Assembly (NCBI GenBank): GCA_028710495.1
Contig: JAQUST010000001.1
Span: 169,853-220,404, forward strand
DNA from: Clostridia bacterium
Lineage (GTDB): Bacteria; Bacillota; Clostridia; Christensenellales; CAG-917
DNA: 50,552 nt
Direction of reading: 5' to 3'
The notes under the pieces: generated by a model
Told to the model about the DNA's origin: nothing
Database searches by the model: none
Seen by the model: the letters and a program-made list of their open reading frames with translations, nothing else
Translations under genes and position numbers: made by a program
Shown: in pieces, positions 28,098 to 50,552 of the stretch
How positions within the stretch are numbered: the stretch's first letter is position 1
Layout: the number at the start of each line of letters is the position of its first letter

Positions 28098-28115
28098 CGT
28101 TTTATTAAAATATTC

Positions 28116-28239
28116 TTTGGGCAGGGTTGAATACCCGACCGGTGGTGATGCCGTTTTATACGGACAAGTCCAACAGCCCCAACAGCCGATGCGGTTAGAA
28201 TCCGCAACCGCCTGTAAAGTCAGCATGGGAGAGAGTAGC
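28116..28239 (+). ncRNA. FMN riboswitch (RFN element)
   Basis: gggcagggttgaataCCCGACCGGTGGTgatgcc...agccgatgcggttagaatccgcaaccgcc...agcatgggagagagta matches the RFN consensus blocks. Confidence 0.93.
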
Positions 28240-28264
28240 ATTATTGCACAACAGTGCTTTTTTT
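28236..28264 (+). terminator. Riboswitch expression-platform terminator 1
   Basis: agcattattgcacaacagtgct followed by ttttttt. Confidence 0.6.
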
Positions 28265-28938: not shown

Positions 28939-29008
28939 ATGAAGATTAAAGCATAATTTCTTCTGCTTTCAAAAAAAATTAACAAAGCGACAACATAGTT
29001 GACTTTTT

Positions 29009-29314
29009 TGGAGCTGTTACCGGGATTTGCTCCGTTTCGCTTTGCTTCACTATCACGCCGGGGCTACGACCCTTCTTCTGCCACTGGCAGCGGGTCTTGC
29101 CCGTTCAAATCCCTTTTTACCTTAGAAACAAAAATAGTCCCCACTTGGGGACTATTTTGGTTGGAGCTGTTACCGGGATTTGCTCCGTTTCGCTTTGCTT
29201 CACTATCACGCCGGGGCTACGACCCTTCTTCTGCCACTGGCAGCGGGTCTTGCCCGTTCAAATCCCTTTTTACCTTAGAAACAAAAATAGTCCCCACTTG
29301 GGGACTATTTTGGT
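29009..29314 (-). repeat. Two 153-bp tandem units downstream of tRNA-Thr, each with a copy of the tRNA 3' end plus a terminator
   Basis: tggagctgttaccgggattt at 29009, 29162 and 29315 (the real tRNA); identical spacer and aaaatagtccccacttggggactatttt terminator in each unit. Confidence 0.95.
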
Positions 29315-29390
29315 TGGAGCTGTTACCGGGATTTGAACCCGGGACCTCGTCCTTACCAAGGACGTGCTCTACCGACTGAGCCATAACAGC
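29315..29390 (-). tRNA. tRNA-Thr(GGT), CCA encoded
   Basis: GCTGTTATGGCTCAGTCGGTAGAGCACGTCCTTGGTAAGGACGAGGTCCCGGGTTCAAATCCCGGTAACAGCTCCA; cloverleaf, anticodon loop TTGGTAA. Confidence 0.97.
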
Positions 29391-49752: not shown

Positions 49753-50099
49753 AAGTTTTCTTCCTTATATCCCAATTTAATAAAATAACAATAATATGAT
49801 ACACTATGATGAACATTTTGTACACTCAAATTTATTATGATATATTTATTAGTTATAAATAGATATTCGAAATCAAAAGCAAAACTTGTACGAACCATTT
49901 CAATTTTGAAGCATAGCTTAAAAACTGTGGCATTTTTAAGATTCCTATAAATATTAAGCCGAATATCATCAAGTTTGTTGACAAACCATAAAGGAATTTG
50001 ATATACTCATCTGCGTTGAATGTATGCATTTTGTATTGTTATTTATCTATTATTGTAATTTATCAAATCTACAATACTAAGTAAGGCAGTATAAAGTAA

Positions 50100-50260
50100 A
50101 AAACAATTTAATAGTTTGGAGGATTGGCTGGTGGCGCTTGCGACACTTCCGGTGACGGACTCCAACGCCTACCCTCAGGAGCGGTGTAACCGCGAAGCTT
50201 TCGTAGCTTGGTAACGCAATATAAAATAGAAAACAATTTAATAGTTTGGAGGATTGGCTG
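50100..50260 (+). repeat. Direct repeat (130-bp period) of tRNA-Ser upstream sequence plus tRNA 5' end
   Basis: aaacaatttaatagtttggaggattggctg at about 50101 and about 50231; only the second continues into the tRNA. Confidence 0.9.
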
Positions 50261-50335
50261 AGCGGTTTAAAGCGGCGGTCTTGAAAACCGTTGATGTGAA
50301 AGCATCCGCAGGTTCGAATCCTGTGTCCTCCGCCA
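50248..50335 (+). tRNA. tRNA-Ser(TGA), CCA encoded
   Basis: ggaggattggctgagcggtttaaagcggcggtcttgaaaaccgttgatgtgaaagcatccgcaggttcgaatcctgtgtcctccgcca; class II tRNA with variable arm, anticodon loop CTTGAAA. Confidence 0.95.
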
Positions 50336-50552
50336 AAACAAAACCCACAACATAGTTTGTGGGTTTCTTATTATTTTCGGACACAGGAAAACGAAATCGT
50401 GCACGCTCACTTTGTTCGCTGAGAACGAATCCTGTGTCCTCCGCCAAAACAAAACCCACAACATAGTTTGTGGGTTTCTTATTATTTTCGGACACAGGAA
50501 AACGAAATCGTGCACGCTCACTTTGTTCGCTGAGAACGAATCCTGTGTCCTC
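50315..50552 (+). repeat. 111-bp tandem repeat downstream of tRNA-Ser with tRNA 3' end copies and terminators; runs off the window
   Basis: cgaatcctgtgtcctc starts at 50315, 50426 and 50537; aaacccacaacatagtttgtgggttt terminator in each full unit. Confidence 0.95.

Follow-up and report, generated by a model that had tools for sequence, protein, structure and literature searches.

The window analysed here (the whole stretch of 50,552 nucleotides, G000:C35:169853-220404) contains two tRNA genes that are each followed by tandem copies of their own 3′ end. This raises the question of whether chance, a recurrent process or a function placed these copies there, and of how two different tRNA genes came to carry arrays of the same plan. 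The source gut-Clostridia MAG spans 1.57 Mb in 39 contigs and is 91% complete. For one protein of the window, the nearest named matches were uncultured gut Clostridia such as Candidatus Faecicola pullistercoris (46% protein identity).

Tandem copies of tRNA 3′ ends in the source genome

The tRNA-Ser(UGA) gene occupies positions 50248–50335 on the plus strand (ARAGORN; RF00005, 53.7 bits). TRF detected a tandem array at 50315–50552, with a period of 111 bp, 2.1 copies and 100% matches, exactly where the preliminary description had placed it. Comparison of flank repeats showed that the repeated tRNA 3′ end, CGAATCCTGTGTCCTCCGCCA, is 21 nt long and runs from C56 to A76 (50315–50335, plus strand, inside the gene), so the tRNA-Ser 3′ end had been recognised correctly, but slightly too short. 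A first extra copy follows at 50426–50446 (plus strand, offset 91) and a second at 50537–50552 (plus strand), where a 100-N scaffold gap truncates it. The array does extend past position 50552, as had been stated, but the end of the window is the last base before this gap (G000:C35:220404) and not the end of the contig.

Every full unit bears one intrinsic terminator, in agreement with the earlier claim. It consists of ACCCACAA...TTGTGGGT followed by TTTCTT, and is identical in unit 1 (50341–50369, plus strand; sequence and inverted repeat) and unit 2 (50452–50480, plus strand; sequence and TRF). The preliminary description overlooked that each spacer also contains GGACACAGGA, which is exactly reverse-complementary to TCCTGTGTCC of the tRNA 3′ end. 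This forms the antisense arm of a helix, P1, at 50379–50388 in unit 1, where, among 25 in the swap test described below, its best fit was to its own tRNA, and at 50490–50499 in unit 2, where it was located as an inverted repeat (both plus strand). The scaffold gap (G000:C35:220405–220504) falls within the array, which continues beyond it to approximately position 1360 of L006, with 111-bp units alternating with a 68-bp unit (period 179), and stops approximately 235 bp ahead of a 958-aa ORF. The interleaved 68-bp unit (L006 1023–1090 and 1202–1269) has a second, different terminator, GAAGCACC..GGTGCTTC, and its 3′ end consists of CCGCCA only. At least four extra 21-nt copies are visible, three complete and one truncated by the gap, which masks the real total.

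The minus-strand tRNA-Thr(GGU) gene (29315–29390; ARAGORN) is followed by an array at 29008–29335 with a period of 153. Its first module (29162–29314, minus strand) contains a terminator, the antisense arm GGGATTTG, a core GGCGTGATAGTGAAGC..AAACGGAG and the 21-nt copy of the tRNA 3′ end at 29162–29182. The second (29009–29161, minus strand) is identical to it (TRF). The R3 model introduced below matched module 1 at 29162–29282, and both modules scored 75.7 bits, with the Thr unit itself being part of the R3 training set. An FMN riboswitch (RF00050) lies close to this array, at 28108–28240 of the window.

We located all 40 tRNA genes of the source MAG and examined their flanks. Six of them carry modules: the tRNA 3′ end is copied downstream, in direct orientation, at Ser(UGA), Thr(GGU), Leu(UAG), Ser(CGA) and Met(CAU), and a decayed copy is present at Leu(CAG). 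Contigs C3, C4, C11, C17 and C23 run out no more than 51 nt from a tRNA 3′ end (Arg-ACG, Pro-CGG, Leu-GAG, Ala-GGC and Glu-UUC), presumably because further arrays broke the assembly there. Such arrays probably fragment assemblies where tRNA genes end, and in practical terms they also look like att sites when islands are searched for.

A rarer 5′ counterpart of these 3′ modules is formed by duplicated leaders. In the window, the promoter/leader and nucleotides 1–13 of tRNA-Ser(UGA) (50220–50260) are duplicated 130 bp upstream, at 50090–50130 on the plus strand, which the preliminary description had overlooked as well. Across all fetched loci, the leader and tRNA 5′ end were copied upstream in 5 of 311 tRNAs, with the break at nucleotides 13–21 in the D-loop region. 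These were Ser-UGA in three genomes, Pro-CGG and Ala-CGC (window 50090–50130, L055, L061, L070 and L090).

Module anatomy and distribution among relatives

Among 166 tRNAs from several genomes, 18 of 29 copied blocks were exactly 21 nt long, from C56 to A76, while the lengths of the remaining 11 are due to substitutions or chance matches. Units share a fixed order: an optional terminator, a strand antisense to the T-arm/acceptor of their own tRNA, internal hairpins and the sense 21 nt with CCA. Directly after the terminator comes this antisense strand, or arm, which base-pairs with the tail copied from the tRNA. When the tails of 25 units were swapped, the summed arm–tail score fell from the observed 196 to 142.5 ± 6.5, and none of 50,000 permutations reached the observed value. 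The antisense arm is tailored to its own tRNA. Neighbouring units in one array can differ in terminator and spacer (L071, L165), and the terminator of a unit can differ from the one after the last copy (L078, L067), neither of which is expected from plain duplication. An array at L181 (1300–1500) lies 3′ of an apparent tRNA-Ser without a 5′ half. Gut-1 RNA, which is known from metagenomes, was found directly beyond the tRNA-Ser(GCU) module of L067 (1068–1142, minus strand; RF01706, 78 bits).

The modules are widely distributed. In the relative G006, they occur at approximately 12 genes, including Thr-CGU, Ala-CGC, Ala-GGC, Ser-GGA, Tyr, Trp, Leu-UAG, Val and the 3′ end of tmRNA. None were seen in G024, which belongs to another family. 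We searched more widely with three covariance models trained on a few modules (R1–R3). R1, applied to 292 genomes of the class, identified modules at tRNA-Ala, tRNA-Leu and tRNA-Ser in two further families, besides a false positive at L175, and R2, applied to 399 genomes of the phylum, found a compact module type. R3 detected modules in 11 of 399 genomes of the phylum and in 30 of the 85 genomes of the class to which G530 belongs, both lower bounds because the filters were strict and the models cover some module types only. Nearly all strong R3 matches lay 3′ of tRNA-Ser, -His, -Leu, -Gly, -Pro, -Thr or tmRNA. The core was found at most 450 nt 3′ of a same-strand tRNA or tmRNA at 37 of 49 loci; of the 12 exceptions, four or more are contig edges.

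Modules also follow the tmRNA (ssrA) genes of two distant genomes (L164 878–1213; L206 1440–1924, minus strand), where the arms match the tmRNA 3′ end. They are present in the single-contig genomes G530, G684, G702, G715 and G760, and their number varies from 2 to 9 between congeners. In G530, a 128-nt stretch with one 21-nt block separates tRNA-Leu(GAG) from tRNA-Ser(GCU), and its congeners G577 and G506 have the same operon with neither this stretch nor a scar.

These results bear on two claims of the preliminary description. Having compared only the Ser and Thr arrays, it argued against chance and for a process that recurs or a function. The genome-wide pattern search strongly upholds this, since the same plan is found at six tRNAs here, at approximately 12 tRNA and tmRNA genes of G006 and beyond its family elsewhere in the phylum, and the arrays are not confined to just two tRNAs. 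The view that the two arrays were independently built holds only in part: the Thr and tRNA-Leu(UAG) units have a core common to modules in other families, although the Ser(UGA) unit stands apart as a reduced module, which agrees in plan, lacks the conserved core and is not matched by R1–R3. No family in Rfam 15 covers the clostridial modules, and the open-licence papers searched do not describe such modules outside rtT, which are the two sources against which we judged novelty.

Conserved core and possible explanations

To what kind of molecule does the core belong? Alignment of the compact type with the Thr and Leu units of the source genome revealed near-invariant GAACGG, GGCGUGAUAG and CGGAGC. 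For six units of one core family, RNAalifold on an unfitted MAFFT alignment (A1) identified compensatory changes in 21 of 42 pairs. In an extended alignment that was fitted to the covariance model (A3), both sides had changed in 29 of 42 pairs, and covariation was 0.452, versus 0.156 for shuffled and 0.075–0.106 for slid alignments. Together, the core GGCGUGAUAG...CGGAG and the compensatory changes indicate a structured nucleic acid, which, judging from sequence, is most likely an RNA transcribed together with the tRNA. The case for RNA over folded single-stranded DNA, while short of proof, draws on the conserved core, the placement in tRNA operons, the terminal CCA, the precedent set by RtT and a modest excess of G-U, which does not appear in every set. 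Among variable pairs, G-U exceeded A-C by 12:2 in one set and 16:4 in another, with the reservation that RNA folding and the models favour G-U. A mixed set of 25 P1 helices showed no such excess (10 G-U/U-G versus 9 A-C/C-A).

Members of one core family lie at Ser, Ala and tmRNA targets, and their arms match the respective target. Median core identity was 0.77 within a genome at different tRNAs, 0.76 at the same tRNA in different genera and 0.68 where neither was shared; therefore, concerted evolution is not strong, and within-genome homogenisation of cores was rejected. When type A units were considered as a reverse-oriented core, the sole match was a weak one of 14 bits at L162 on the minus strand.

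On balance, we favour the explanation that these are RtT-like 'tRNA-tail' modules, i.e., short genes for a structured RNA that would be made from the tRNA promoter. The RNA would be transcribed as a 3′ extension of the tRNA, either directly or via terminator read-through. It would start with the strand antisense to the T-arm/acceptor 3′ strand of its own tRNA, continue with two or more hairpins and close on the copy of nucleotides 56–76, ending in the CCA tail of the tRNA. Processing at both CCA ends, as described for the rtT RNA of E. coli tyrT, could then release a stable tRNA-like RNA, produced in step with its tRNA, for which regulation or decoy activity seems the likeliest role. Copy number would shift through recombination between identical 21-nt blocks. 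In two operons (L187, L207), a module lies within the tRNA operon with no evident terminator ahead, and co-transcription is therefore likely. Most modules in the source genome have a terminator between the tRNA and the RNA part, which counts against an RNA explanation as these modules would only be present in read-through transcripts. Two further points against it are that the Ser(UGA) unit lacks the core and that many copies are decayed (L162, L183, L044), so that selection at individual loci may not be strongly purifying.

A possible but doubtful alternative is that the units are site-specific mobile cassettes without RNA function. Here, a recombinase would insert ORF-less cassettes at T-loop position 55|56, each bringing a 21-nt tRNA 3′ end and a terminator, with the imperfect palindrome serving as a folded recombination site like the attC of integrons. 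The boundary indeed lies exactly at 55|56, T-loop-to-CCA is the usual identity block of tRNA-integrating elements, and it would fit that successive units differ in terminator, that cores at different tRNAs and at tmRNA are homologous and that module number varies between congeners. The exact empty site within one genus would fit too, but precise insertion and loss through recombination between 21-nt repeats predict such a clean site equally. The modules contain no ORF, however, and the conservation of their core is RNA-like. A PF00589 search returned one full-length tyrosine recombinase each in the source genome (Xer-like), G006, G007 and G011, and we rejected a tyrosine integrase as the mover since only Xer-like genes were seen. 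A phage link was rejected as well: scanning viral contigs for the core pattern yielded six matches, none of them close to a tRNA, which we consider chance matches. It seems rather unlikely that the conserved hairpin core is itself a self-retargeting element, one that would move from one tRNA or tmRNA gene to another, insert exactly at 55|56, restore the 3′ end and terminator of its target and gain a target-matched arm. If the core does move between tRNA genes, it would be an unrecognised kind of tRNA-parasitic element.

Could the arrays have arisen without any function or mobility? Slippage or unequal crossing-over might copy the tRNA 3′ end, terminator and downstream sequence, after which the arrays would drift. 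The Ser and Thr units are identical or nearly so within their arrays, so duplication surely amplifies existing units, and the 175-bp rtT VNTR varies among Salmonella serovars (PMC2658671). Yet plain duplication does not account for the fixed break at nucleotide 56 in many tRNAs, unlike terminators within one array, tRNA-matched arms, compensatory changes, or a core common to non-homologous tRNAs in different families. Given the swap test and the A3 covariation, it is disfavoured as the sole cause, and we consider it improbable. An artefact of metagenome-bin assembly is hardly credible. The window does stop at a scaffold gap within an array, and the 3′ end of a tRNA is where several contigs stop, but neighbouring units differ in sequence, and genomes assembled as a single contig have modules, as does E. 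coli K-12. For the feature class, an artefact is excluded, and the issue bears on the copy number at the Ser locus only.

Comparison with known systems

Like tRNA-integrating islands, the modules have a T-loop-to-CCA identity block that leaves the tRNA intact, and an exact empty site. Unlike islands, their inserts measure approximately 75–310 bp, lack an ORF and a detected dedicated integrase, and have an internal antisense arm and a conserved core. They resemble integron cassette arrays in being short units in series at a single site, with an imperfect palindrome in every unit. Unlike these arrays, they have no cassette genes, and their site is the tRNA T-loop. Among the PF00589 genes inspected, which were Xer-like only and came from incomplete MAGs, no integron integrase was seen.

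The closest parallel, which the preliminary description did not name, is the RtT RNA (rttR) of the E. coli tyrT operon (Bosl and Kersten 1991, as cited in PMC2965389). Published work regards this RNA as a by-product of tyrT that may take part in the stringent response (PMC2965389) and as structured, on the support of covariation (PMC7657543, PMC8250186). Its copy number varies between strains (PMC2658671). At tyrT/tyrV of E. coli K-12, we found four RtT units (RF00391, 133–138 bits), in which 19 nt of the tRNA-Tyr 3′ end are copied and P1 is GGGGAAGGAU. At the curated cut-off, RF00391 matched neither the source genome nor 40 relatives, with E. coli as a positive control, and it did not match the modules at E ≤ 5 or E ≤ 1; a 21.6-bit match at L177 was a false positive. 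Unlike RtT, the clostridial modules occur at many tRNAs and tmRNA with arms tailored to each tRNA, many follow an intrinsic terminator, and their core differs (GGCGUGAUAG...CGGAG). The rtT RNA has so far been regarded as a peculiarity of one E. coli operon, long known but unexplained. As an rtT-like plan is found at many tRNAs and tmRNA in distant relatives, the puzzle may be general and open to comparative tests, and covariance models for finding modules are now available. The clostridial modules are RtT-like in plan, while not being members of RF00391 by model: both follow a tRNA gene directly, frequently as tandem copies, both end in a tRNA 3′ terminus with CCA (19 nt in E. coli, 21 nt here), and in both a closing helix P1, formed by an antisense strand and the copied tail, encloses hairpins.
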